Source: Halocafeteria seosinensis (lineage: Eukaryota > Sar > Bigyra > Bicosoecida). Taken from it: a stretch of DNA of 64,000 nt. The position numbers and the translations under genes are program-made. The stretch lies in assembly GCA_001687465.1 (NCBI GenBank), contig LVLI01000255.1, forward strand, positions 1 to 64,000, written 5' to 3'. The notes below the pieces were generated by a model, which was not told the origin of the DNA, searched no databases, and saw only the letters and a program-made list of their open reading frames with translations. Each line of letters starts with the position of its first letter. Within the stretch, counting starts at the first letter, position 1. Shown piece after piece: positions 13,793 to 61,761 of this stretch.

Positions 13793-16700
13793 CTATCGCG
13801 ATGTATTTTCTGCTTGAGGACCTTCCCATTTCTTCAGATCGACAAGCTCGAGCCAAGGAATAAATTTGTATCCTTGCGTGTTATACCATTCGACCATCTG
13901 CCCATAGCTCACTCGCACTTCCTTGAGGTTACTCGACGTACACCTACCAATATCCCGGGCAATATTTCGACCCACAGCTAAACTAAGCTCTGCTAGTTTC
14001 TGCGGGAATCCAGCGTTACGATATTCATCACTGAGACTTAAAATTGCAAGCAACAACGAAGCGAAGAACCTCCCCATTTCCGCTTCCGAGAGTCGGTGTG
14101 AGTCTGCAAATGCTTTGCTGTTGGAGAGAATACCGAATTCCGTAAAAGCAGTCATCAGCTTCTGACTCTTTTTGCAATCTGATAGGATTATCAACGCACA
14201 TGCAAGCTCTTCCGCAAGGAGTGATCCTTCCGCCAGATCGGGGCTGTGAACTTGGCACAGCGCAGAACAGTAAGCCACAAGGCTCCCTACAATGTCGCTA
14301 CAAGCGCCCGTGTCCTTTGGGGAGGCTTCTTTGCGAAGAATCCGCTTCGGTAGTGCTTCTTGTACTCGTTGGGAGTCTAAGACATTGTCAGGTACCTCTA
14401 TATCCACGGATTTACTCCTGCTGGATTTGAGGAGTTGTCTTAAGCCATTTGTATCATGAAGGATACCGCTGTCTAAAGCTGCTCGTAAGGCGCGAGCATT
14501 TTCTGAGTCACCGTAAGTGAACTGAATCGTATGTTCTATACCACTCACGTGGACATCAAACACGAACACAGGAACATCCGAATCTAAATACCCACTCAAA
14601 TTGTGCTCACTATCCACATCGTTTGCCTCATGTTCAGAGAAGGTTAAATCACTTGCCTCTCCAGCAGAGCCGTCGCGGGTATTAGTGTCCAAAGCGGAAC
14701 TACTAGGCCATTTCTTCGTATCAATGAATTCAAGCCAAGGTATAAGTTGGTAACCGACATTGTTATACCAGCCGCCAAACTCTTCGAAAGACATTCCTTC
14801 AGAAAACTGGGCGCGTAAGGTTCCGACGACAAAGTCGCAGTGGGCTAACAAAACAGCACAACCGTCAGACCGGCTGAAGAACTCTTCGGAGAAGGATGCT
14901 ACCGCCGCAAGAAATCCGCCTAATATGGAAAGTATGCCGTCCGAGCCTATTCTTCTGGAGTCTCCGCTACAGGCCTCATTCCAGCAGAATAGTAGTTTTT
15001 CGCTCTTCGAGCCGCGGCAGAGTACAGAGAGAGCACACAACACCCGTAGAGATCCGGGTGTCTTAAAAATACCGCACAGCTGTTGATAAATCCGGTTGAA
15101 GTGATAGCTGAGAAATATTTTTTCCTTTTCTCCAATGTCCGTCCCCGGGATAAGAAGCCTCAGTAAAGCATTATACTCCCGTTTCGAAGTGATGTCCCCA
15201 ACTCTCGAGGCTGCGTCACTTAGCGTATTTACACCTATCTTGACCAAGTCAGATACTTTGAGAAATCTGCTGTGAGCAGCACAGTCTTCTGAAGTGAACC
15301 GAACGGCACTTTTTCCCCAGCGCTCAGTGGCCAAGTTGAATTCGAAAATGAATCTGTCGGACTCGTTTTCTACTCGACATTGTTCCCCGCTTTCTTTATT
15401 CCAATAGCTAGGAGACCACTTGCTTACATCCAACAGCTCGAGCCAAGAAGCTTTCTCTCCACCACAGTCGTTATACCACTTCGCAAACTCTTCCCAAGTA
15501 ATATGCTCCCCATTATTATCATTACATTCGCTAACTATGGATATAGCCAGCTCCATCATCGCATCAGAGACATTTCGAGACAGCGCGACCGACCGCTCAT
15601 GTGCAATAATGATCGAGTAATCAGGAATCTCGGACGGTTCTTCATAAACCAATGAAGCCGCCGAGCCAATACCGACAACGGCTGAAACAAGAAGTCTCCA
15701 AAGCTCCGCATCGCTTATTGACTTTTCTTCACCAGTACCAAACACCGCAAAAGCAGACCTCAATTTGTCACTTTTAGATCCCGAGCATAAGAGCGAAACA
15801 GCCACCGAAAACTCCATTGCATCCACTCCACCACTTTCGGACTCATCATCGAGGGCGAAAAACACCCGCGTAACGAATTTCTTCAGTAAATAAGGATCAC
15901 CAAGTTCTGCGTTAACCAAACTCCTTACAGCGTCCGCAGGCAGAGTGCTGTCCTCGGCCTCCATTTCCTGAAGACCACGATGTAGTTCCATGCTCGATCG
16001 ACTATTCAATCTCGTAGAGCCTACTAGGGCATGAACTTTCTTCGTTGTTGCTGAGTCTATTCGGAGGCTTGATTCGTCCCCAAAGTAGATGACGATTTCT
16101 TCGTCATTCTTTGAAATTCCGGGTGATAACTTCGTTAGATCTGAGAATAACCATTTGCCGGGGTCCAAATACTCTAACCAAGGAGCGACGGTAGTGCCTT
16201 GGTTATTGTACCAATTTCCGAAGTCATCGTACGTCAGTGTTGTACTAGATATACTATCTTTAATCGAGCGCATGGCATAGTCTACACCGCGGCGCACCTT
16301 GTTCCAGAGGTCTTGCTTCCTTCGACCATCTGGATGTTGCTGCTCAAGAAAAAGACATAGCCCGCTTACACCGGAGAAACAACTCTGCAAAATACGCCTC
16401 AATTGTTGCCTTGTAACACCCTGTCTCCCTCCGACTTCGGAAAAAATGTACGATAATTTGTCACTCTTGCTACCATGACATATAGGCGTTAACGCGCATA
16501 ACGCTAAGCTACGATTCATTTCCTCAGTGCAAATATTTGTCACAAATTCATGGAGTAATCGGAGCAAGTCTCTCCCGAAGATATCATCCGCTGGGAATTT
16601 AAGTATTGACGCAAAGCGGTCGGCATCGGGCTGGAGTTCACTTAGACTACCCGAAAGAAGCCTGTGCAGCTGGGTAATGTCCATAGAGGCCAAAGGCGAA

Positions 16701-19700
16701 GAAGCCAGGAAAACCGCAACTTGGCGCATTCGTTGCGGATCGATGGTAAATGCCTCTCGTACCTGCTTTCCAGCTAGTGATATGTTCAAGTTTAGATTGA
16801 TAGGAACGTGAACGTCTCCCTCTTCCTCGCTTTGCGGAGCACCATGACTTGCCTCTGGTGTCTGCACGCACTGAGCCCATTTTCTCAGGTCGAGAAGTTC
16901 CAACCAAGCCGCTCGGTGGTAGCCTCCACTATTGTACCATTCACCGAAATCACTGAACGACAGTTCTTCCTTGCCGGTTTCGGACAAAATACTGTCCACA
17001 AAAGTCTCACCTGACTTTTCAAGACTATCTGGGCCGATCCGCAACACTCTCCCAAAATAGTATAAGCTGGCGATGAGTGAAACGAACATTGTTTGCAACT
17101 CGTCCTTTCGCAGACTCTGCTTTTGGAACAAAGACCAGCAACACCTTAACTTTTCGCTTTTGCTTCCCGAGCAAAGCCATACCATTGCCATTTTCAAAGC
17201 AGTATATGACCGGAGACCTAGTCGAAACAGGAAACGCGCCCAGATACTGAAATATTCTAGCGTCACATGGGAGCTAAACGATTCTTCCACTTCGGTAGCA
17301 AAGTGTTGAACGAGCTGTTGGATGCCCTCGATTAGCCCCTCGTCGGACGACACTTGGTTTTCCACTACATTGGCCGAGAGCTCAGAATTCAATTTCTTCC
17401 AAAGCTCGGTAGCAGTGTACTGGCTAAACCCGCTCGCATGGACTGCGGACAAAAACAATTCAGCCGCAGAAACCCTCAGTGGCAGTGAAGGGAGATGAGG
17501 GAAATCAAACGTGCACAATACATCTTCATTCGCTGCCTCGGAAGGATGGCCAGCCCAGCTCTCAGAACTTCCCAAAGCCTCCGAGACAACGTCTCCCCAC
17601 TTTGAAAGATTAAGTAACTCCAGCCACGATACCCTGTCAAAGCCACCGCCGTTATAGTATTCCCCAAAAGCGTCAAAAGACAGACCACGATGCTGAATTC
17701 TCGCTTGGCTAAATACATCCTCAACAACATCCTGACAGGAGTCTTCGATTATTTCTTCTACAGTGTGCGGAGCCGCTCTTTGAGCTTCCCCTTGAAGTGC
17801 CAACACTCCTTTCAAAAGGGCTCGAATCAACGCGAAGAACTCGTGGCGACTTAGAACCCCATCACTATCCGAGTCCATAAGTTCCCATGCGACTGAGAGC
17901 TTCTCAGATTTGGATCCCCCACAAAGCAGTAAGAACCCTGTAATAAATTCATTTGCGTCTACAACTTCTTCGTACGTTTGGTCGAACGCAAAGAAAAAAG
18001 TATTCAGACTCAGTGAGAGGAACTTCTTGTTTTGATCATTCATTCCTCCCACATCAACGAGTTTCCTCATGGCCTTATTGAAGCTTCCTTTATCGAGAGT
18101 TTCTTCGACGCATTCCTCAAGGAGGACTTCCACAGCTTTTTCTGCCTGTATATTCCCAAGTTTGCTCAAATTCAACAATCGAGAAACGTTATTTACATCG
18201 GCATCGCTAAGGCTCAGTACATGCCCTTTAGAAGAAAGGTTGAATACTAGAGTGTCGTCATAGACTTCATCAGCCCCCTGATTTGCACTCTCAGTGATAC
18301 TTCCTTCGTTTTCTGAGACGGAATAACTCGGACTGCCAGTTGAGTTTCCGTGCTTTGGCCATTTTCGGAGGTCAAGCAACTCTAACCAGGGAGCCATTTT
18401 GAAGCCTTCCTCGTTGTACCACGCTCCAAATTGTTCGAAACTAAGCACTTCTCGCGTCACGTTGCCCTTACGATTGTAGTAAACAGCAGCCTCTGTTAAT
18501 TGAACACACGCTATGTCAACATCTTCGCACAAGGAAGCCAGCTCCTCACGGGAGAGCTGTTCTACAGCGAAATACTTCACCATCACAATACCAGTGAGGA
18601 AGCTTCTCAAAAGCCGCCAAATTTGGACTCGCTTCAGCGCATTATCATTATCATCATCTAGAAGTGTCCAGGCTGTACTAAGCTTCTCGGATTTACTACC
18701 GGACGCGAATATGCTCAGGCCAATGGTAAATTCCCAGAAAGACACCGCTTTAGATTTCGACCTATCGAAAGCCATGAATAGCCGGTCTAATGCTCGAGAA
18801 GCAAACACACTCTCTTCTCGTTCTAACTGTTGTGCATCTATGAGTCTTCGCATAACTTTGTGAAAGCTTCGCTGAGATATATGACCGGAGGAGGACCTGT
18901 CCAGCAAAAGCGTAACAATGGTGCCTACGTCATTAGAATCCAACCTTGTTATTCTGATAAACTCCTTTAAAGCCCGACAATTATCAAATGTGATGTACAA
19001 AAACCCGCTCTCGTCAGGATGACGTAGCTGTTGTTCGTCTAATTGTTGAGGGGACGGAGCCTCATGTGGCAGGACGACACGGTCGTCCCCATCCCTCGAT
19101 ACAGCAAGCACGGGGAATGGGAAGGCTATTTGGTTTTGCATTGAGTCAGGCTTGCCTGTTGACGTCATACTGTTCTTCACAAAATCCGTTTCAGCCTCTT
19201 GGCGAGGCCACTTATGGAAGGCCATCAATTCAAGCCAGGGTATCCTTTGATGGCCTAAATTGTTATACCACTGGCGGAAGTCTTCAAAGGAAACGGAACG
19301 CTCGGCGGTTTTGTTCTCTAAAGAGGACAATAGCTCTCGTGTGATTTCGCAGGAGGACTGGACTATTGTTTTAGCCCATGCGTCAACACCTGGTTTATTC
19401 TGAGACACAGTAACTGCAATGATGGGAACTAAGAAAGAACCTATCATTCTCTCCATATCTTTAGACGACACTTCTACCCTTTCTGCTTTATCTGGTTGTC
19501 CTATGGTCTGTAGAATGTTGTCTCCGTTGAAGACTGCAAATGAGAATGTTAGCTTCTCACTTTTGCTTCCAGCTACGAACATGCTCAGCGCAGTAGCAAT
19601 GCCATCTACCGGTGCTTGCTCACGGTTGCCGGTGGCCCATACAGCACGGTGCGACTCCAACCAGAAGATAGTATTAAATAACCCAGAAAGCCAGGCCTTA

Positions 19701-21514
19701 TCTTCTTTTGAGAATCCTGTCCCAGGAATTATTGCACGGATAAAATGATCAAAACTCTGTTTGTCAACCACTAGAAGTTGTGTATTCCTAGTAGCACGAT
19801 CCGCCGCTGGTAGAAGTTGACCGATGTATGTCTGGGCGAAGCTACTCACCGTAATTTTCGAGAGTCCCGTGATCTGGGCTGCTTCACGGACCATATCGGC
19901 ATGACGATCATTCAATTCCAGACTACTTCCGTCGTTCGTCAAAAGGAACGACAACGTGATGCCAGCGGAAGATTCCCCAGTCGCCATGTTCTGTGATGTT
20001 TCCATAAGTTGACTGGGAGCTGTCGACCGCAGAGACCATTTGGTGGGATCCAGAAGTTCTATCCACGAGAACCGGTCACATCCGCCACTATTGTACCACT
20101 GTGCAAAGTTGCCGAAACTTACGGTATCGCTTGTGGACTTGTCTCTATTCGAAAAGCGGAGAGCCGCCCTGGCAACGTTAGCAGCACACGACTCGATCGA
20201 CGCTAAACCTGTGTCACTGTCGAACGAGTCTGAAAAAATCCAAAGCATATTTAAGAACGATCGAATCATCAAAAATAAACTGGATCGACTGACAGTGATA
20301 TTCGCGCTCGACTCGCATTCAGCATCCTCAGCAAAAAGCTTGAAAGCAGCTTCCAATTTTTCACTCTTAGTTCCTTTGGATAGAATGAGAAACCCGCAGG
20401 CCACTTCTTTGGTTTCAACTTGCTCAATATCTAGCAAATCGAACGAGTCAAATACTTGCAAAAGAAACTCCCGCACTCGGTCTCTCTCCGCTCCTGTTAG
20501 TTGTTTGCTACATAGTTGATCGACACATTTCTCAAAGTTGTCCTTGAAAAGGCCCCCTAGTCGTTCGTATTCAGAAAAGCTTCTTATAATATCCTGTGGC
20601 CTCCATTGATTAAAGCCAACCACTGTATGCATGTATTGTAAGACTTGGAGTGTATTCCTAGAGATAACCATGGCATCACCATAATCCCCAATGTCGATTG
20701 AGAGCACTTCATCCGATTCATCATCGTCATTTGGGGGCGGTGCACTGGCTGTAACTTCACTTGCAGGTGGTGCCGGTGGACGTTGAGAAATATGACGATT
20801 ATTTTCCGTTCCAGTTGCAGTCCCAAAGGGCTTTTCTTGTGGCCACTTGTTAGTATCCAAGAGCTCCATCCACTCCACTGTTCCTGCACGCGCAGAATAC
20901 CATTTACCTAAGGCCTCGAAAGTTGCTCCCGCACTCCCGTGAGAGCCGTGCTTCCTCAAATCCTCTACGAGTTCACCAGCGGCATCATCAATGGTACGGA
21001 TAGTGGTAAGCCACGCTGTGCTTCGAGCGTGAGAGCTCAGAGCAAAGATTCCTGAGAGTAGGGATCGAAACAACCGCCAGAGTTCTGCGTCGGATAACAC
21101 TCCTTCTTCGTTGGAGCAAAACAACCCCCACAGGGTCGACAGTTTATCACTCTTGGATCCCGCAACATACACCGATAGAGCCGCGCATAGGTCATCAATT
21201 CGCACCCACCCAGTGGATACTCTGTCAAGCAGTTTGTAAACCGAGTCCAACAGTGGGATCACTGTTACTTCGTCAGAAGACTCAAGTAGATCTGGGAATT
21301 GCTCAAGGAATCTCATTCGATCCACACAGTTACCAGAGCAAATGTATTCCAGAAACTCATACATATCCACCACCTCAACCGCCGCCAAATCAGTCTTGTG
21401 CAAGACTTTGAGTGCTTCAGAGAAGTCATCATTGGCAAACGTTACGTACAGATCCGACTGTAAAGGCGACAGTTGAAAGCGATGATTCATGTCCTGTCTT
21501 GATTGTGCCATCAT
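13793..21514 (-). CDS. Giant protein of ten EF-hand-derived (NCS-like) modules
   Basis: A single uninterrupted exon codes for 2573 residues from ATG 21514. Ten modules of about 235-295 residues follow each other. Each has a variable first half with helix-loop-helix-like segments and then a hallmark GSKSEKLxxAWxLF. An EF-hand-like loop and a LWRLLRSFLxGI-type helix follow. Each module closes with FGxWYNxxGxxxxPWLELLDxxKW. The WYN box lies near residues 205, 475, 750, 1034, 1288, 1528, 1770, 2015, 2251 and 2545. The G-S/T-x-x-E-K-L-x-x-A-F/W step before an EF loop is typical of neuronal-calcium-sensor and calcineurin-B-like proteins. Only module 5 keeps a canonical calcium loop (DSDSDGVLSRHE, near 1217); module 4 has DDDNDNALKRVQ, and the others have lost ligands. 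No signal peptide or membrane segment is seen. A scaffold with one or few calcium switches is my inference; the function is unknown. Confidence 0.85.
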   Translation of the reverse strand: MMAQSRQDMNHRFQLSPLQSDLYVTFANDDFSEALKVLHKTDLAAVEVVDMYEFLEYICSGNCVDRMRFLEQFPDLLESSDEVTVIPLLDSVYKLLDRVSTGWVRIDDLCAALSVYVAGSKSDKLSTLWGLFCSNEEGVLSDAELWRLFRSLLSGIFALSSHARSTAWLTTIRTIDDAAGELVEDLRKHGSHGSAGATFEALGKWYSARAGTVEWMELLDTNKWPQEKPFGTATGTENNRHISQRPPAPPASEVTASAPPPNDDDESDEVLSIDIGDYGDAMVISRNTLQVLQYMHTVVGFNQWRPQDIIRSFSEYERLGGLFKDNFEKCVDQLCSKQLTGAERDRVREFLLQVFDSFDLLDIEQVETKEVACGFLILSKGTKSEKLEAAFKLFAEDAECESSANITVSRSSLFLMIRSFLNMLWIFSDSFDSDTGLASIESCAANVARAALRFSNRDKSTSDTVSFGNFAQWYNSGGCDRFSWIELLDPTKWSLRSTAPSQLMETSQNMATGESSAGITLSFLLTNDGSSLELNDRHADMVREAAQITGLSKITVSSFAQTYIGQLLPAADRATRNTQLLVVDKQSFDHFIRAIIPGTGFSKEDKAWLSGLFNTIFWLESHRAVWATGNREQAPVDGIATALSMFVAGSKSEKLTFSFAVFNGDNILQTIGQPDKAERVEVSSKDMERMIGSFLVPIIAVTVSQNKPGVDAWAKTIVQSSCEITRELLSSLENKTAERSVSFEDFRQWYNNLGHQRIPWLELMAFHKWPRQEAETDFVKNSMTSTGKPDSMQNQIAFPFPVLAVSRDGDDRVVLPHEAPSPQQLDEQQLRHPDESGFLYITFDNCRALKEFIRITRLDSNDVGTIVTLLLDRSSSGHISQRSFHKVMRRLIDAQQLEREESVFASRALDRLFMAFDRSKSKAVSFWEFTIGLSIFASGSKSEKLSTAWTLLDDDNDNALKRVQIWRLLRSFLTGIVMVKYFAVEQLSREELASLCEDVDIACVQLTEAAVYYNRKGNVTREVLSFEQFGAWYNEEGFKMAPWLELLDLRKWPKHGNSTGSPSYSVSENEGSITESANQGADEVYDDTLVFNLSSKGHVLSLSDADVNNVSRLLNLSKLGNIQAEKAVEVLLEECVEETLDKGSFNKAMRKLVDVGGMNDQNKKFLSLSLNTFFFAFDQTYEEVVDANEFITGFLLLCGGSKSEKLSVAWELMDSDSDGVLSRHEFFALIRALLKGVLALQGEAQRAAPHTVEEIIEDSCQDVVEDVFSQARIQHRGLSFDAFGEYYNGGGFDRVSWLELLNLSKWGDVVSEALGSSESWAGHPSEAANEDVLCTFDFPHLPSLPLRVSAAELFLSAVHASGFSQYTATELWKKLNSELSANVVENQVSSDEGLIEGIQQLVQHFATEVEESFSSHVTLEYFSIWARFLFRLGLRSYTALKMAMVWLCSGSKSEKLRCCWSLFQKQSLRKDELQTMFVSLIASLYYFGRVLRIGPDSLEKSGETFVDSILSETGKEELSFSDFGEWYNSGGYHRAAWLELLDLRKWAQCVQTPEASHGAPQSEEEGDVHVPINLNLNISLAGKQVREAFTIDPQRMRQVAVFLASSPLASMDITQLHRLLSGSLSELQPDADRFASILKFPADDIFGRDLLRLLHEFVTNICTEEMNRSLALCALTPICHGSKSDKLSYIFSEVGGRQGVTRQQLRRILQSCFSGVSGLCLFLEQQHPDGRRKQDLWNKVRRGVDYAMRSIKDSISSTTLTYDDFGNWYNNQGTTVAPWLEYLDPGKWLFSDLTKLSPGISKNDEEIVIYFGDESSLRIDSATTKKVHALVGSTRLNSRSSMELHRGLQEMEAEDSTLPADAVRSLVNAELGDPYLLKKFVTRVFFALDDESESGGVDAMEFSVAVSLLCSGSKSDKLRSAFAVFGTGEEKSISDAELWRLLVSAVVGIGSAASLVYEEPSEIPDYSIIIAHERSVALSRNVSDAMMELAISIVSECNDNNGEHITWEEFAKWYNDCGGEKASWLELLDVSKWSPSYWNKESGEQCRVENESDRFIFEFNLATERWGKSAVRFTSEDCAAHSRFLKVSDLVKIGVNTLSDAASRVGDITSKREYNALLRLLIPGTDIGEKEKIFLSYHFNRIYQQLCGIFKTPGSLRVLCALSVLCRGSKSEKLLFCWNEACSGDSRRIGSDGILSILGGFLAAVASFSEEFFSRSDGCAVLLAHCDFVVGTLRAQFSEGMSFEEFGGWYNNVGYQLIPWLEFIDTKKWPSSSALDTNTRDGSAGEASDLTFSEHEANDVDSEHNLSGYLDSDVPVFVFDVHVSGIEHTIQFTYGDSENARALRAALDSGILHDTNGLRQLLKSSRSKSVDIEVPDNVLDSQRVQEALPKRILRKEASPKDTGACSDIVGSLVAYCSALCQVHSPDLAEGSLLAEELACALIILSDCKKSQKLMTAFTEFGILSNSKAFADSHRLSEAEMGRFFASLLLAILSLSDEYRNAGFPQKLAELSLAVGRNIARDIGRCTSSNLKEVRVSYGQMVEWYNTQGYKFIPWLELVDLKKWEGPQAENTSR

Positions 21515-26162: not shown

Positions 26163-26541
26163 TCTCCTCTCTGCTTATATTACCATCGATCATACTACCC
26201 ATCTATCTCGAGAAACATAATCATCATCCATACTATAGCCTGTAGGAACGAGCGACTTGCCGTTAACCGTACTTCCTTGAAGTTGAAGCCGCGGCGCGAA
26301 CCTTAAGCTAAGGCTTAACTGGGCCACAATCGGCGTAGCCTCGGCTAACGGGTACTTACTATAGTTGAAGTTGAATACACACGCGTTCCAGGTGTGCCAC
26401 AATCATAATAATGCGTGACAATATGTGTGTCTTCGTAAAGGCTGTAGCAATGGTGTTGATTGCATGTCTATGCACAGGCTTAGCGCATGTGCACACGCAC
26501 GCACGTACGTACGTATGCTGCATAGTGCAGAGGGAAATACC
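26163..26541. other. Shared upstream region of divergent genes
   Basis: About 380 bases separate the starts of the six-repeat protein gene (-) and the four-TM gene (+), so it probably holds both promoters. It contains a G/A-rich GTTGAAGTTGAA stretch near 26365, a related GAAGTTGAAG near 26278, and CGCACGCACGTACGTACGTA near 26492. No gene is seen. Confidence 0.4.
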
Positions 26542-27240
26542 ATGGAGTCGCATAACATCAAGCGCGTTGGTGTAGAGGTGGAGAGGGGAAGTTACGATAA
26601 GCAACACGATAACGCGAACCAGTTCGAACCGAGTTGGATTCAACGATTGCCGAATCCCTTGTACAACTACCTACACCCCTCGAAATGCTGCTGTGGGTGT
26701 TGGAGCCTCCAGACAGCCACGTACATTATACTCATTGGACGCCTTTTACATGCCATTTCAGTGGTAGTGGTGGCATTACTGGGAAAGCAACTCTATGAAG
26801 GGCACGACAAACTTGCATCCGAAGCTATCGAACCCCCGTACTTCACCGGAATGGACGAAGTATATGAGTTTCAGTACCGCCAAACCAAGTATCTTAGGAA
26901 AATAGAAGTAATCAGAGGCTGCATCATCATTGCTTCGATAGTCTATCTTAAACGTGGACTGGGCGCAGTAGGACAGCACACTATTACAGCGGATGCGGCG
27001 AAGAGCTTGAGGCGAGGCGTTTCTATCAGTATTGGGATATCAATAGGCTGGCTCTGTTTCCAATTGCTCAGCTTTTCCACTGGGTATGTTTTGGGATATT
27101 TAAGCATACGGACAGTCCTGGTCTTTGGCCTTAGTTTTGCGCTCTCAGCAGTTGTTACCCTTCACTTTGACGGAGTGGTTCTCTCACGTTGTCTTGCGCT
27201 CTGGAACGCTCGACGAGGACCCGACAAAGACGCGCCCTAA
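26542..27240 (+). CDS. Four-TM protein of the 'LHPSKCCCGC' family, copy 1
   Basis: A single exon codes for 232 residues from ATG 26542 (ATACCATGG context). The frame stays open upstream with further ATGs at 26464 and 26470, so a longer N-terminus is possible. A soluble N-terminus ends in PSWIQRLPNPLYNYLHPSKC then CCGC, directly before a first membrane helix. Three more hydrophobic segments follow (near residues 125-140, 160-185, 190-212). The gene at 39862-40722 has the same W-I-x-x-L-P...YLHPSKCCCGC block and topology, so the two are paralogs. The Cys cluster at the membrane edge recalls LAPTM4-like endomembrane proteins and could be palmitoylated; both points are inference. Confidence 0.75.
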   Translation: MESHNIKRVGVEVERGSYDKQHDNANQFEPSWIQRLPNPLYNYLHPSKCCCGCWSLQTATYIILIGRLLHAISVVVVALLGKQLYEGHDKLASEAIEPPYFTGMDEVYEFQYRQTKYLRKIEVIRGCIIIASIVYLKRGLGAVGQHTITADAAKSLRRGVSISIGISIGWLCFQLLSFSTGYVLGYLSIRTVLVFGLSFALSAVVTLHFDGVVLSRCLALWNARRGPDKDAP

Positions 27241-34624: not shown

Positions 34625-35797
34625 TTACTTGATATCAATTTTCTTGCTTTCCTTCTTTTGGGGTGCAAGTTTGGGAATGTTGACATGAAGTACCCCTTGG
34701 TCACAATTGGCTTGGATCTTCTCTTTATCCGCGTTTTCAGGTAGTTTCATAGATCGCTTCATGGCACCTGATCGGCGTTCCTGAAATTATGTAAAAGTAA
34801 GGTAGATAACGCTACTTAAATGCCTATATGGTGACTTTTCCGAAACTTACGATTCTGTGCCACTTATCGCCCTTGTCTTCTTTTTCTTCTTTGCGATCAG
34901 CGGATATTGTAAGGGTATCACCTTCCACTTCGACATTTACGTTTTCTTTGGGAACGCCTGGGAGGTCGGCTTTCAGATCGTAGCTCTTGTCATTTTCCTT
35001 TACGTCCAAGGCCATGGAGTTGAGGAAGGGAAATTTCCCACCGGGGAATCCAACTTGTTCACCAGTATCTCCTTGGCGAGGCTGCACAGCCTGGGACTGA
35101 CCTCCGGCACCTCGTTGAGGCTGGTCACCGATCAAGTTTCCAGGTTGATCGACATCGGCCATTGTGTTAAATGGATCCCACTGCAGAGATACGATAAACA
35201 ATCGGTTAATACAGTATCTATCGAAGCCGCTCACGTACTACGCAATAACTTACGTATCTTCCACCGAAGAAGTTGTCCATCATGCGATCCATCGACCGTC
35301 TGCATTTCAAGTAAATCAAAACGTCGAGTGAATTCTTAGTCTGTGTGAGAGAATTCGCAAGTCAACAAAGCCAGATAGGGTTCACCACTTTCCACCCATG
35401 CTAGTGGTTTCTTCTTCTTCGAATGTTCTACGGATGAGTCACACCAATGTCAATCCTCTAGTTAGAGAGGAAATTGTATGAGTGCTGGGAGCTACTGCTC
35501 ACATATTGCCTCTACACATAAGCGAAGTTGAAAGGCTTCCTAAAAATCAACATCAAATTGTGGCAAGGAGCCGTAATATCACTCCCACCGGAGTTCTCAC
35601 CTCTTCAATTCCTTCCACTTCTCAGACAACAGCGGTGAATTAGTAATCGTTGATATTACTTAGCACCGTGCGCAGACGCAGTACCAGATTGGATTACTGG
35701 AAAAACAACAGAGAAAATTTGGTCTAAACACGTTTGTATAGACTTACCTCATGCGGTCGAAATCGTCGAAGAACGGATCTCGTCTGAATTCTGCCAT
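34625..35797 (-). CDS. Small heat-shock protein (Hsp20/alpha-crystallin), copy 1
   Basis: Model: complement(join(34625..34780,34851..35180,35254..35299,35748..35797)), 193 residues. The N-terminal arm has FFDDFDRM and NFFGGRYWDPFN. The alpha-crystallin domain (about 87-180) shows [30 protein letters not shown], a basic stretch, and GVLHVNIPK. The I-x-I type tail is KIDIK. It would act as an ATP-independent holdase in the cytosol; no organelle signal is seen. Exons 2, 3 and 4 have exactly the same lengths (46, 330, 156) as copy 2 at 60595-61761. Intron 1 is long (448 bases) compared with introns 2 and 3 (73 and 70). bZIP-like sites lie upstream (35985-36049). Confidence 0.93.
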
Positions 35798-39861: not shown

Positions 39862-40722
39862 TCATAAAGAGGCAGCATTGTTCTGGGACTGTGCAGGAGC
39901 CTGGGGAGACATACATGCCATCCAAGTACTCACACAGTACGACAAAATGACTCCATCGAAATGGAGACCTATGAGTACTACTATAGCTGCAGAGATAAGC
40001 GTTGCGAAGACGCCCACAATGGGTAAAATACCGGTAATCAACATAGCCGCTGCAACCAATACTTGAAGGGCGACGCTAAACAAACTGTATCCTATCATTA
40101 TCGACACGCCTCTCCTCATTTTCTCAAAAGCAGAGCCCGTCACATGTCCAGTGGTGGGAGCCACGTTCCTCAGTCCCGCAATGATGTAGATGGCAGCTGC
40201 CAAGACTGCAGCTCCTTTGAGTACCGCAAGGATACTAAAAAATACCTGAACTCCTTGAGAGAAGGGTACTTCCTGTTGTGTACTAGAGCCAGCAGTCCCT
40301 GTTCCATGGCTTGAGGTTGTGTTGAGGGAGATACCAAACCCAACATGGCCTTTGTGGCCACCGCCGAGCCCAGAAAGGATATTCATGAGTCCACTGAGTA
40401 CCCGCAAGATTAACAATATCCAAGCGCTTGCTTTTAATGTAAAGCAGCCGCAACAGCATTTCGAAGGATGCAGATACTCGTACAAGCCAGCGGGAAGCTT
40501 TCGGATCCAAGGAGGCTCGAAGTAGACAGGGGATCCATCCGGATTTAGCTGTTGTTGCTCCTCATCCGGCTCATTTGTGCCTTCAGTGGACGGTGCTTCG
40601 GCACCTCCAGTATCTCGATAGGGTTGGAAACGTTCCGTATTCTGGAAGCCATTCTCGTTGTGATCTTCTGGAGGAGGAGGAGCTGTCGCTCCTGGCTGGG
40701 AAGTAGTAGCGTCGTGAGACAT
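39862..40722 (-). CDS. Four-TM protein of the 'LHPSKCCCGC' family, copy 2
   Basis: A single exon codes for 286 residues from ATG 40722. The N-terminal 85 residues are Pro/Glu/Asn-rich and soluble. Then comes PPWIRKLPAGLYEYLHPSKC + CCGC, which aligns directly with copy 1 at 26542-27240. After the first membrane helix (ILLILRVLSGLMNILSG) there is a Gly/Ser-rich loop. Three more helices follow, ending IVVLIGLHFDGVILSYCVSTW, matching copy 1's LHFDGVVLSRCLALW. Conserved LHFDGV(I/V)LS after the last helix is a second family mark. The function is unknown; a palmitoylated endomembrane protein is a guess. Confidence 0.8.
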   Translation of the reverse strand: MSHDATTSQPGATAPPPPEDHNENGFQNTERFQPYRDTGGAEAPSTEGTNEPDEEQQQLNPDGSPVYFEPPWIRKLPAGLYEYLHPSKCCCGCFTLKASAWILLILRVLSGLMNILSGLGGGHKGHVGFGISLNTTSSHGTGTAGSSTQQEVPFSQGVQVFFSILAVLKGAAVLAAAIYIIAGLRNVAPTTGHVTGSAFEKMRRGVSIMIGYSLFSVALQVLVAAAMLITGILPIVGVFATLISAAIVVLIGLHFDGVILSYCVSTWMACMSPQAPAQSQNNAASL

Positions 40723-40919
40723 GCCTCACTCCCAGTGGAATTATGGTTGTTCAAAACAAAACTATATAGTTAATTTATACACCCTGAATATCACAAGCAC
40801 AAGGGGGACCCCTACCATGTTTATACAAAACAGCTGTCTGCGGGTGAAGTACTAGATGTACACACACATACAGTATGGTAGGCCGCCTACCGTAGGCGGC
40901 TATTGGTAGCCCACCCACC
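40723..40919. other. Upstream region of copy 2 with hairpin
   Basis: Holds the 5' region of the four-TM gene and a GC-rich hairpin at 40879-40902. One arm is TAGGCCGCCTAC; a single C separates it from its near-perfect complement, and the arm contains GTAGGCCGCCTAC, itself a palindrome (40878-40890). It sits 18 bases left of the MITE's target duplication. Confidence 0.5.
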
Positions 40920-46287: not shown

Positions 46288-47400
46288 TTAGAACTGCAGA
46301 TGTAAGAATTGATCATGTCGTTCAACCGAATGTCCAAATTTTCTCACTTCACGGTTCATTCTGGTATGGATCCAAAGGAACTCTTCTTCATCTACCTCCT
46401 TGACGCACATCTTCTTGATCTGGACAGGCTTCATTCGTAAACGGACCAGGTTCCCAGTACCCTCCTCTAGTTCGGGAAAGTACATCAACGTCAAGTCTCC
46501 GCGATATTGCTCTTCGCCGCCATTTTCTATTCCTTCGTAGTCATTAATAAAGTCCCCAGCTCCATACAAAATAAGCTTGTTGTGGTATACCTCGATTGCT
46601 TTCGGATGATGAGAGGAATGGCCGAACACTAAGTCTACTCCGGCACTATCAATAAGAGAATGAGCAAAGGCACGCTGTTCTTCAGGAATTTCATATCCCC
46701 AATTTCCACCCCAATGCACCGAGTAGACTACGTAGTCTTGTTTCCCCTTGTGATGCCGTACTATGTCGCTAATCTTCTCCACTTCTTGCCGCTGATCCGA
46801 GGTCACAAATGAAATACCAGGAGTAAAATTTGTGGCCTTCCATATATCCGGGATGCCGCTGCTTGCTCTGCCACCGGCTATAACGATGCATCGCGCGTTA
46901 TGGAGCCGAAGCGTGGCTGGCGCTTCAGCTTCTGTTTGGTTACGGCCCGCTCCGACGGTCTGAATGCCTTCATGATTGAGAGTGTCGATAGTGTCATACA
47001 TGCCCTGAGTTTTCCAGTCTAGAACATGGTTATTAGCAAGCACGCAACAGTCTATGCCTGCTTCTTTTAAAACTTCAACATTTCCTGGATGCATCCTGTA
47101 GTGTATTCCCTTCCCCTCCAAGGGCTCTTCATGTTGGGTAACCGCCGTCTCAAGGTTGATTATCTTCGCATGTGGTTTCACTTCTTCCCAGACCTTAAAA
47201 GAATCCCCCCAGACGTAGCTGTAGTCCACGGGTTTAGACGAGATCGTCCCATTCTTTCTTTCCGCCAAGTGGGTGTAAAACGAAGCGTCCTTGACGAAGC
47301 CTTCGTAAATCGTCTTCGGAACGGAGTGTGGTAGAATCTGATCTACCCCTCTTCCAGTCATCACGTCTCCACACAGGAATAGCGTAAATGGACGAGCCAT
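46288..47400 (-). CDS. CapA-family (PGA_cap) putative metallophosphatase
   Basis: A single exon codes for 370 residues from ATG 47400; an upstream in-frame TTG is not a likely start. Family motifs run in order: FLCGDVMTGRGVDQ (about 7-20), INLETAVTQHEEPLEGKGIH, CVLANNHVLDWKTQG, YSVHWGGNWGYEIPEEQRAF, VDLVFGHSSHHPKAIEVY and ILYGAGDFINDYEGI. These give the Asp, Asn-His and His ligands of a calcineurin-like metal site. Bacterial CapA/PgsA takes part in polyglutamate capsule export, but free-standing cytosolic members like this one occur in bacteria and scattered eukaryotes. No signal peptide or TM segment is seen. An intronless bacterial-type gene hints at old lateral transfer (inference). Confidence 0.88.
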   Translation of the reverse strand: MARPFTLFLCGDVMTGRGVDQILPHSVPKTIYEGFVKDASFYTHLAERKNGTISSKPVDYSYVWGDSFKVWEEVKPHAKIINLETAVTQHEEPLEGKGIHYRMHPGNVEVLKEAGIDCCVLANNHVLDWKTQGMYDTIDTLNHEGIQTVGAGRNQTEAEAPATLRLHNARCIVIAGGRASSGIPDIWKATNFTPGISFVTSDQRQEVEKISDIVRHHKGKQDYVVYSVHWGGNWGYEIPEEQRAFAHSLIDSAGVDLVFGHSSHHPKAIEVYHNKLILYGAGDFINDYEGIENGGEEQYRGDLTLMYFPELEEGTGNLVRLRMKPVQIKKMCVKEVDEEEFLWIHTRMNREVRKFGHSVERHDQFLHLQF

Positions 47401-49049
47401 GGCTAGTACATGTGCGTTCCAATCTGTGCCACTAGCTACCGATATGAACAATCAAGCATCCATCCTCAGCGCAACGTGACGCCAGATGACGTGTTAGAGG
47501 TGTGCTGTAAGTGTTCCGAGCGGTTTCTTGCAGAGCGGCACCCATGACGATACAACGCCGAATAACAACAGAATTTTGTCAGGCATATTTCTGTTGTCTA
47601 TCGAATCTCAGTGAAGACAGTGAGATTGTGTTCTACAGCAATTCTCCCTCGACTGTGAAGTGTCTGCAGTCCGCGACGCCCAGCGTTCAGACCGAGCCTT
47701 CTCACCATTGTTTTGTTGCAGCTTTGGGCCGCGAAACACTGCTGTTCCTTCTTGGTGTAAACGTGATGCGAACGAGCAATTTGGTACCCCTCTCCAAGAA
47801 ACTACGGTTACCCACACAACAACCCAAGTGTCCTGGTTGGGGAAGCTACTTACCAAGTATCCACTTTCTACCTAATTTCGAATGAGTCAGATTGAACAGA
47901 AGAACAGTTCTCCGCATGGAAGGAAATTCCTGTTAATTCTTTCTTGCACGTAACAGGTTCTCAAACAATGTTGACCAACTGGCAAAATTGCATAAGTTAT
48001 GTCAGCAAGCTTCGACTCATAAACAGACACACATACGCATACCACATATGTGACAGATAACCCACCGGCCGGACTCACTGCATCTGGAAAGCCCCATTCA
48101 CCCATTGTACCAACAGTGTACAGATAGGCCCACACTGCTGGACGTAGCGGAATTGAACAAAGCTGCTGCTCTGTTATCAGGGAAGGCTGCATAGGAAGCC
48201 AGTAATGATCAATAAAAACTTTGCCGGATGAAGAGCAATCTCGCAAGGCCGTTAAAATTGATATGGGAACTGTTCAACGAACGATATGAAACAACGTCAG
48301 CACTGAAATGGGACTCACTCCACCTAAGAGAGTATCGGAAGAAGCCGCAGCAGGGTAACACCGTATATTTTTCTACTAACAAGACGGAAGAAGCAGACAT
48401 AGCGAGAGATTCTGAAACGTAACAGGTATTCTTTGACAACACTTGGAACGGCCAAGCCGATATCAGTCTCAATTAAATAGCAAAGTTTAGTGTAACTCAG
48501 TAGACCCAACACACTCAGGGGCTAAGTTTTTGGCGGACTCAGTGCCAACGGTTCACATCGTTGGAGTCTAAACACCAAATAGGGTATCACTCTAATCCTG
48601 CAGTATATGAAGCCCTCAATCCGCTACTAAGAACCACCCTCAGCTGTAAGCTCTGGAGCACTTCCTAGAACCTAGTCTGTACTGTCCCGTCATAACTATG
48701 AACCTTGCCAGGTGCTCATTGGATCCGCCATTTTTCGTCCTCTCTTACACCCGAAACAATAACTCGAAACCCTAACCGGAGCACCACTCTCCTCTTAAAG
48801 TCCTTCCACCAGGCCACATCTTAGGACAGGCAAAACAGTATTAAAGAAATCATAAACGCCGTTATCTTTCCGCTTTCTATAGGCGCAGCCGATAAAGCCT
48901 TGGAATATCTGGCAGCCTCCAGTGCAATGGAACGGGGTATGGTACTGCCGAAGGCAGGGAGGGACCAACACTTAGGTAGCTCCATACGAGAGAGGTTCTC
49001 GTACACTATATCAAGGCTTTGACAAAAGTACCTCAGCCTACTCCCTGCA
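47401..49049. other. Gene-poor region with a short ORF
   Basis: 1.65 kb with one plausible small ORF on the plus strand (ATG 47544, stop 47885, 113 residues, no domain). It also holds dispersed repeat copy C (48043-48072) and a hairpin near 48540-48580 with arms CCAACG/CGTTGG inside GACTC...GAGTC. A Pyr-rich acceptor-like site at 48892 precedes a 47-codon open stretch. None of this adds up to a supported gene. It may be old mobile-element debris. Confidence 0.35.
48043..48072 (-). repeat. Dispersed repeat, copy C (partial)
   Basis: Thirty bases reading CACATATGTGACAGATAACC then CACCGGCCGG are the reverse complement of the right part of copy A (105-134), with only two or three differences. 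The left half of the repeat is absent here. Confidence 0.6.
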
Positions 49050-60594: not shown

Positions 60595-61761
60595 ATGTCT
60601 CACTTCGGAACAAGACATCCAATGATGGATGATTTCGAGCACATGAGGTACGTTTCGATGCTCTCTAAGAGCAAGTGCCAATGCATACCGTGTCTATTGA
60701 TCAACGCGGATGAAATACGGTGCCGCATATGGTAGCGGAGGTGGATACGAAACCGTATTACGGAAGTTGAAGGAAGAGAACAATAGCAAAGAAGGATGGA
60801 AGTTTCGAACCGAACGTGGTATTCACGGTATTTCAATGGTATGACATCATTTGGTCTTTGGCAAGGGATATGAACAGAATTTGGTGTAGGACAGAGTCAT
60901 TCACTACTGTATAAAAGATATGCTTGCGGCGCCTCGTGGAGAGTTGTGTGACGTCACTCTAGGCTTTTATTGGAACATTCGAGAAAGATTGAATGACTTC
61001 TAGTATTTTACATGAGAGAACCGATTTATGCTTCTAGAGAAAGAAATGCAAAGTTTAACTTGAGAATGTCATCGACGTGCAGACGATCTATGGATCGGAT
61101 GATGGATAGCTTCTTCGGTGGAAGATTCGTAAGTGCAACAAGACCGTTGCCATCGACAGTATGTGCGGAAAACTGGGAAATATACTGTGCCGTTACAGTG
61201 GGATCCATTCAATACAATGGCTGACATCGACCAACCTGGGAATCTCCTCGGAGACCAGGCTCAGGCTCCGTCTGGCGCTGGAGAGTCTCAAGCCGTCCAA
61301 CGACGCGAAGGGGGAAGTGAACAACTCGGTTTCCCCAACTCCCGATTCCCTTTCCTTAATTCTATGGCTCTTGACGTCAGAGAAAAGGACAAAAGCTATG
61401 TTTTGACAGCAGATGTTCCTGGTGTTCCGAAGGAGAATGTCAAAGTGGAAGTGGAGGGAGATACATTGACCATTTCTGCCGACCGGAAGGAGGAAAAGGA
61501 AGACAAGGGCGAAAAGTACCGCCGCATCGTACGTATGAGTCTCCGGATGCAATTACTCAATGTGATTATTTAACCTGCATATGCTGCTTTGCGAGGAAAC
61601 TGCAGGAACGGCGATCTGGATCCATGAAGCGGTCAATGAAGCTTCCACAAAACGCCGACAAAGAGAAGATCAAGGCGAGCTGCGACAATGGTGTTCTTAC
61701 CGTTGATATTGCCAAGCTTCCTGAGGCCAAATCTGAGAGCAAGAAGATTGATGTCAAGTAA
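60595..61761 (+). CDS. Small heat-shock protein (Hsp20/alpha-crystallin), copy 2
   Basis: Model: join(60595..60647,61083..61128,61199..61528,61606..61761), 194 residues. It starts MSHFGTRHPMMDDFEHM; exon 2 codes for [16 protein letters not shown] and exon 3 begins [15 protein letters not shown]. The alpha-crystallin domain has [30 protein letters not shown] and GVLTVDIAKLPE, with the tail KKIDVK in place of copy 1's KKIDIK. It is about 75-80 percent identical to copy 1 by eye. Exons 2-4 have identical lengths, and intron 1 is again long (435 bases). It is an ATP-independent chaperone. A frame-1 reading of the long intron is not coding. Confidence 0.93.

Follow-up and report, generated by a model that had tools for sequence, protein, structure and literature searches.

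A gene of ten box-closed EF-hand modules

We analysed a window of 64,000 nucleotides from the bicosoecid Halocafeteria seosinensis (contig LVLI01000255.1, positions 1 to 64,000 of the forward strand), which carries at 13793-21514 on the minus strand a gene for a protein of 2573 amino acids made of ten tandem EF-hand modules, each ending in a closing box of the form WYNxxGxxxxPWLELLDxxKW. The gene and its modules lie as follows.

13793-21514, minus: complete coding sequence from the ATG to the stop codon, 2573 amino acids (uninterrupted translation and the near-identical protein P0002)
20843-21469, minus: core of module 1, closing box 20843-20902
20036-20716, minus: core of module 2, closing box 20036-20098
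19208-19963, minus: core of module 3, closing box 19208-19270
18359-19129, minus: core of module 4, closing box 18359-18421
17597-18280, minus: core of module 5 (modelled with AlphaFold2), closing box 17597-17659
17897-17917, minus: GSKSEKL step of module 5, between EF2 and EF3
16877-17527, minus: core of module 6, closing box 16877-16939
16151-16819, minus: core of module 7, closing box 16151-16213
15416-16102, minus: core of module 8, closing box 15416-15478
14708-15364, minus: core of module 9, closing box 14708-14770
13826-14614, minus: core of module 10, closing box 13826-13888, with CKKSQKL in place of GSKSEKL

No internal stop interrupts the frame between the ATG and the stop codon. The protein starts with MMAQSRQ, has a computed isoelectric point of 4.9 (acidic) and a computed mass of 287 kDa, and a sequence scan found no transmembrane-like stretch in its 2573 residues. 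EukProt holds a protein (P0002) predicted from transcript GECG01005140.1, whose start and length agree with those of the window protein and which shows 10 substitutions; the long frame is therefore a single coding sequence that is transcribed and not spliced, and the single-exon gene proposed in a preliminary description of this DNA is supported, with the transcript leaving the frame in one piece. The unusual length might point to fused genes or a misassembly, but such an artefact has virtually no chance, since it is ruled out by P0002 of identical length, by the equal module order of the ortholog P0003 and by a second ten-module protein, P0004 (both described below). A six-frame search for paralogs elsewhere in the same genome, with only the best candidates scored, gave just weak, generic EF-hand matches (C471, C72 and C163).

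The closing boxes end at residues 224, 493, 769, 1052, 1306, 1546, 1788, 2033, 2269 and 2563, so that the regular spacing noted earlier stands, with 294 rather than 293 residues as the upper value (236-294). The box is present in all ten modules, its last two tryptophans being kept in 10/10 and the first in 9/10 (tyrosine in module 5), and the step G[ST]KS[ED]KL is present in every module except module 10. When the modules were compared by BLASTP, all 45 pairs matched at E<=1e-3 and none did in each of 20 shuffled sets, which argues that the repetition is not due to chance and bears out the description of ten homologous modules in one frame. A profile of the ten modules spans nearly the full length of every module. 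With the module starts as chosen, the linkers are 16-42 residues long and rich in P, S, T, G and N, and eight of them share 15-36% identity with P0003 over the aligned positions.

Calcium loops of the window protein

The loops were scored with a PROSITE-type pattern and with the strict pattern D.[DNS].[DNSG]G.[ILVM]...E, both of which score letters and not binding. Pattern counts were used because many loops have a length other than 12 residues, which alignment scoring cannot read. Two loops are of particular concern here.

17840-17875, minus: EF3 loop of module 5, DSDSDGVLSRHE, which fits both patterns and is retained in the ortholog P0003
18731-18766, minus: EF2 loop of module 4, DRSKSKAVSFWE, passing the PROSITE-type pattern only, a doubtful calcium site

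The PROSITE-type matches of the protein are DSDSDGVLSRHEF (module 5 EF3) and DRSKSKAVSFWEF (module 4 EF2), and the strict matches are module 5 EF3 and the EF2 loop of module 8 (DESESGGVDAME), which fails the PROSITE-type pattern and is not kept in P0003. Thus module 5 EF3 is the sole loop passing both patterns, and its counterpart is the sole loop of P0003 passing either. The earlier statement that all loops are degenerate except in module 5 is slightly too strong, since the EF2 loops of modules 4 and 8 each pass one pattern.

Fold and family placement of the modules

Pfam matched the whole protein with EF-hand_7 (3.2e-10) and EF-hand_6 (8.7e-8), and EF-hand_7 also matched three of the ten modules taken singly. 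In the profile search NCS-1 was matched at 2.4e-19, and the matches were spread over many neuronal calcium sensor (NCS) groups and calcineurin B, calaxin included. AlphaFold2 models were made for module 5 and one relative, and that of module 5 has four EF-hands, a beta-hairpin and a closing helix with a predicted local distance difference test (pLDDT) score of 91. Pfam, profile and model all agree with the EF-hand and NCS-like nature first ascribed to the modules, and none of them sets the modules apart from EF-hands.

When 93 modules (243 modules filtered at 60%) were aligned by hhalign with small target sets, the scores were 79.3 for NCS-1/recoverin, 68.8 for calcineurin B, 65.6 for dystrophin/dystrobrevin, 33.3 for calmodulin and 16.5 and 10.5 for two shuffled controls; the dystrophin letters used are identical to 1eg3, and those of NCS-1, recoverin, calcineurin B and calmodulin are provisional. 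The NCS probability was 97.8, likewise with provisional target sequences. The dystrophin alignment covers 195 columns and runs through the box, with both box tryptophans opposite those of DWMRLEPQSMVWLP (W...VWLP); in dystrobrevin the second tryptophan is present and the first absent. The NCS alignment also extends into the box columns, where it meets no tryptophan. In the structural search the dystrophin EF-hand region had the best Z for both models, over nearly the whole module, and NCS-1 came within 1-1.5 Z.

By sequence, then, module 5 has its nearest kin among neuronal calcium sensors and calcineurin B, and its predicted fold places it alongside apo NCS-1 and the EF-hand region of dystrophin. 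With NCS proteins (NCS-1, recoverin, KChIP, GCAP) and calcineurin B the modules share the four-EF-hand core. These proteins have one domain each and mostly working loops, and the NCS N-terminus is myristoylated. The window protein differs in starting with MMAQ instead of the MG required for myristoylation, and in having ten modules, none with two pattern-passing loops, where an NCS protein is a single domain of ~190 amino acids with at least two working loops. The likeness to the dystrophin/dystrobrevin EF-hand region, a calcium-independent EF-hand scaffold, lies in the predicted fold over almost the entire module and in the tryptophan-to-tryptophan alignment of the box; the differences are the profile score, which is below that of NCS (65.6 vs 79.3), and the domain context, for Pfam EF-hand_2, EF-hand_3, WW and ZZ had no match in the whole protein (E<=1) or in the ten modules (E<=10). 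The module would work in the manner of both groups and may be kin to them, while being assignable to neither. A viral origin of the module was also considered and set aside, as no predicted viral structure was matched by Foldseek at E<=0.001, which does not by itself prove absence.

Distribution and module counts of relatives

Searches with the window protein returned 8 proteins (P0002 included), with a single-module profile 25 and with a P. infestans query 48; scoring in the first and the last was limited to the 7983 candidates with the most words in common. Among the 48, 43 were classed as oomycete-type, 30 by an oomycete species name and 13 by 64-89% identity to the query. Box-closed modules were found in oomycetes, in the thraustochytrid Hondaea fermentalgiana and in one-module proteins, so the closing motif is not private to the window protein as had been supposed. 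We define here a family of box-closed EF-hand modules, to which the window protein belongs with a box in ten of ten modules. All box-bearing relatives that carry a species name are stramenopiles, among the word-sharing candidates and with most other sources nameless. No description of the family was found in the titles and abstract openings of the papers listed, and a term search of PMC12221091 found no mention of EF-hand or calcium.

P0003 (ENA, 2242 amino acids) is an ortholog with 49% identity that begins inside its counterpart of module 2 and has nine modules by profile count, its start being missing. P0004 (JGI, 2945 amino acids) has ten modules like the window protein, without one-to-one pairing of modules, and the decameric layout is therefore not without parallel, contrary to the preliminary description. 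In P0004 two adjacent modules (residues ~1504-2023) have three canonical loops each, whereas neither pattern finds a loop in the remaining eight. The profile counts ten modules in the window protein, six in P0075 and five in the Hondaea protein. Six modules are found in 40/43 oomycete-type proteins, with four in P0056 and five in P0065 and P0067.

The oomycete six-module proteins (e.g. P0007, P. infestans GN958_ATG18437) share with the window protein the module, the closing box and one internal canonical EF3 loop, and differ in having long inserts and only 22-23% identity over 14-18% of the window protein (BLASTP). Others of them bear the name 'Guanylyl cyclase inhibitory protein' or the name 'EF-hand domain-containing protein', and that of Hondaea is annotated as a potassium channel regulator. 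Exactly one strict loop was found in 40 of the 43 oomycete-type proteins and none in P0056, P0067 and P0069. All 40 strict loops directly follow a K-S-x-K-L-type step, which places them at EF3. A PROSITE-type match within a module was likewise found in 40/43, in module 3 of 39 proteins and in module 2 of the five-module P0065; no such match occurs in P0056, P0066 or P0067, and in P0049 there is a further match outside any module. The Hondaea protein also has one strict loop.

Thirteen one-module proteins of 229-322 amino acids (P0015, P0016, P0018-P0021, P0024-P0030) consist of a single module with its closing box, typically WYTxxGYSSIPWLELLDLQKW, and the hairpin part of the profile is covered in 11 of them. 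They differ from the window protein in that most have their own N-terminal tail and that a canonical loop is present in 0/13. The rest of the 25 proteins are shorter one-module pieces, two-module pieces and P0033, which has no pattern-matched box. The dinoflagellate Durusdinium trenchii has a 'Recoverin family protein' (P0074, 2759 amino acids) of about 13 concatenated NCS-like EF-hand units, which differs from the window protein in having 31 PROSITE-type loops and no closing box. On these sequence features P0074 is a separate concatenation of presumably live sensors whose loops were kept.

Evolution and conservation of modules

A tree of 76 modules included modules 2-9 of P0003, the ten modules of P0004 and five oomycetes. 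Modules 2-9 of P0003 are each sister to modules 3-10 of the window protein, in order; the incomplete first module of P0003 aligns with module 2. As P0003 starts inside the counterpart of module 2, the tree contains no partner from it for modules 1 and 2. The oomycete modules cluster by position, while the deep forks, those of the P0004 modules included, are weak, and one-to-one orthology between window and oomycete modules was not obtained. Identity to P0003 is 65.8% for each of modules 4 and 5 and 38.7-54.7% for seven others; module 1 is without counterpart and module 2 was compared over 150 of its 227 residues.

Across 93 modules the least variable parts are the GSKSEKL step and the box, each with a mean entropy of 1.83 bits compared with 2.55-3.06 for the EF-hands, and the box tryptophans are kept in 83/88, 86/88 and 80/82 of the rows bearing a letter, in a set that was found by a box-containing profile and hence favours box-bearing modules, the box-less Durusdinium units being left out. 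The ten window boxes, to which this bias does not apply, keep their tryptophans as given above. Judged from this pattern, it is the core and the closing helix, rather than calcium, for which the modules seem mostly to be maintained.

A proposed scaffold with one calcium gate

We propose, with a probability of roughly 45%, that the window protein is a scaffold with multiple binding sites, and that calcium adjusts its assembly chiefly by way of a single internal gate. The ten globular modules on short variable linkers of 16-42 residues would form one soluble, acidic chain of 287 kDa. By sequence profile, and by AlphaFold2 for module 5 and one relative, each module is a four-EF-hand domain of the NCS/calcineurin B/dystrophin type that begins with a beta-hairpin and ends in a helix containing WYNxxGxxxxPWLELLDxxKW. 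Most modules, being without a canonical loop, are probably calcium-independent units that bind peptides or helices or pack on each other, as dystrophin EF-hands do. Module 5 probably alters its shape upon calcium binding through its canonical EF3 loop, and a second, weaker calcium-responsive module may perhaps exist besides this gate. In NCS proteins C-terminal helices fill the groove as plugs, and the closing box is probably a built-in C-terminal plug of this kind, packed on the EF-hand core or groove.

The suggestion of a scaffold that kept one switch fits this anatomy, and we infer the scaffold role from the sequence features described. The one switch itself agrees with the lone loop that is canonical by both patterns and with the single-loop rule in oomycetes, while a second loop in module 8 is possible. 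Several observations weigh against a single gate: the module 8 and module 4 EF2 loops each satisfy a pattern, and canonical loops number six in P0004, within two modules, two in P0075 and none in P0009 and P0077. Moreover, a loop by either pattern is present in none of the 13 one-module relatives, and calcium may therefore lie outside the core function. The tree gives no firm pairing of module 5 with oomycete module 3, so the single loops may also have been retained independently in different modules.

The mostly degenerate loops, the lower variability of box and GSKSEKL step relative to the EF-hands across the 93 modules, and the lack of a canonical loop in all one-module relatives would also suit a pure spacer or structural rod, in which the EF-hand folds serve for shape only and the surviving loop is a functionless relic. 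We consider this unlikely though worth keeping in view, since a functionless loop should have degenerated along with the others, and one strict EF3 loop has instead been retained in 40/43 oomycete-type proteins, one in P0003 and one in Hondaea. We regard it as very improbable that each module is a true NCS-type regulator of a guanylyl cyclase or Kv channel, as the profile similarity and the names 'Guanylyl cyclase inhibitory protein' and 'Kv channel-interacting protein 4' of relatives would have it: the likeness is spread over many NCS groups and calcineurin B with no single subfamily, the N-terminus is MMAQ and not the MG of myristoylated NCS, the modules stand in one chain and most of them are without a canonical loop, and the names look like best-hit transfers. 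The annotations as guanylyl cyclase or potassium channel regulators are unsupported by the anatomy.

The repeated EF-hand units, and the presence of calaxin (an axonemal NCS-like sensor) among the profile matches, could indicate a flagellar or basal-body component that binds a partner with periodic sites, much as centrins bind Sfi1 but with the units covalently joined. However, six-module homologues are found in downy mildews, among them Bremia lactucae, Peronospora effusa, P. belbahrii, P. destructor and Peronosclerospora sorghi; several of these species are not known to form flagellate zoospores, and a role in the flagellum only is therefore unlikely; we hold this explanation to be improbable. 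A study of P. infestans (PMC5322657) speaks for it in that over half of the calcium-binding protein genes are reported to be spore-induced, and against it in that two proteins with many EF-hands have orthologs in zoosporic and azoosporic oomycetes alike, though either of these two may or may not belong to the box family. The two, PITG_10150 and PITG_04603, are presented there as novel, with 8 and 10 EF-hands; one is fairly constitutive and the other induced >100-fold in sporangia (PMC5322657), and they may or may not include P0007.

As for its origin, the calcium-gated scaffold might go back to an ancient dystrophin-type domain of EF-hands and tryptophan helix, which stramenopiles would have multiplied to up to ten copies in giant scaffolds encoded by one gene, with calcium binding given up in almost all copies and one live loop held by selection as the main gate; we find this rather doubtful. 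EF-hand sensors normally have one small domain per protein, and here six to ten are joined per chain in a protist family. With most calcium sites decayed and one kept in oomycetes, the family offers a natural test of the change from sensor to scaffold and of the gating of an array by one site. Further, the parallel with dystrophin suggests that calcium-independent scaffolding by EF-hands may be older or commoner than thought.

Other genes in the window

Two similar genes, which we take to be Hsp20-like, lie ~26 kb apart on opposite strands at 34824-35237 (minus) and 61133-61761 (plus). The latter is in two parts in different frames and thus has an apparent intron; it is the one neighbour looked at with regard to the intron-rich neighbourhood that had been described. 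The proteins at 26419-27240 (plus) and 39862-40725 (minus) are, by their sequences, a putative paralogous pair with hydrophobic stretches and a common segment, YNYLHPSKCCCGC and YEYLHPSKCCCGC respectively; Pfam, searched with the 39862-40725 member of the pair, gave no match. In addition, a full-length PGA_cap domain (bacterial capsule synthesis protein, PF09587, 2.1e-76) is encoded at 46288-47451 (minus) of this eukaryotic contig. PGA_cap-type proteins may occur in eukaryotes too, and the gene may possibly be of bacterial origin.
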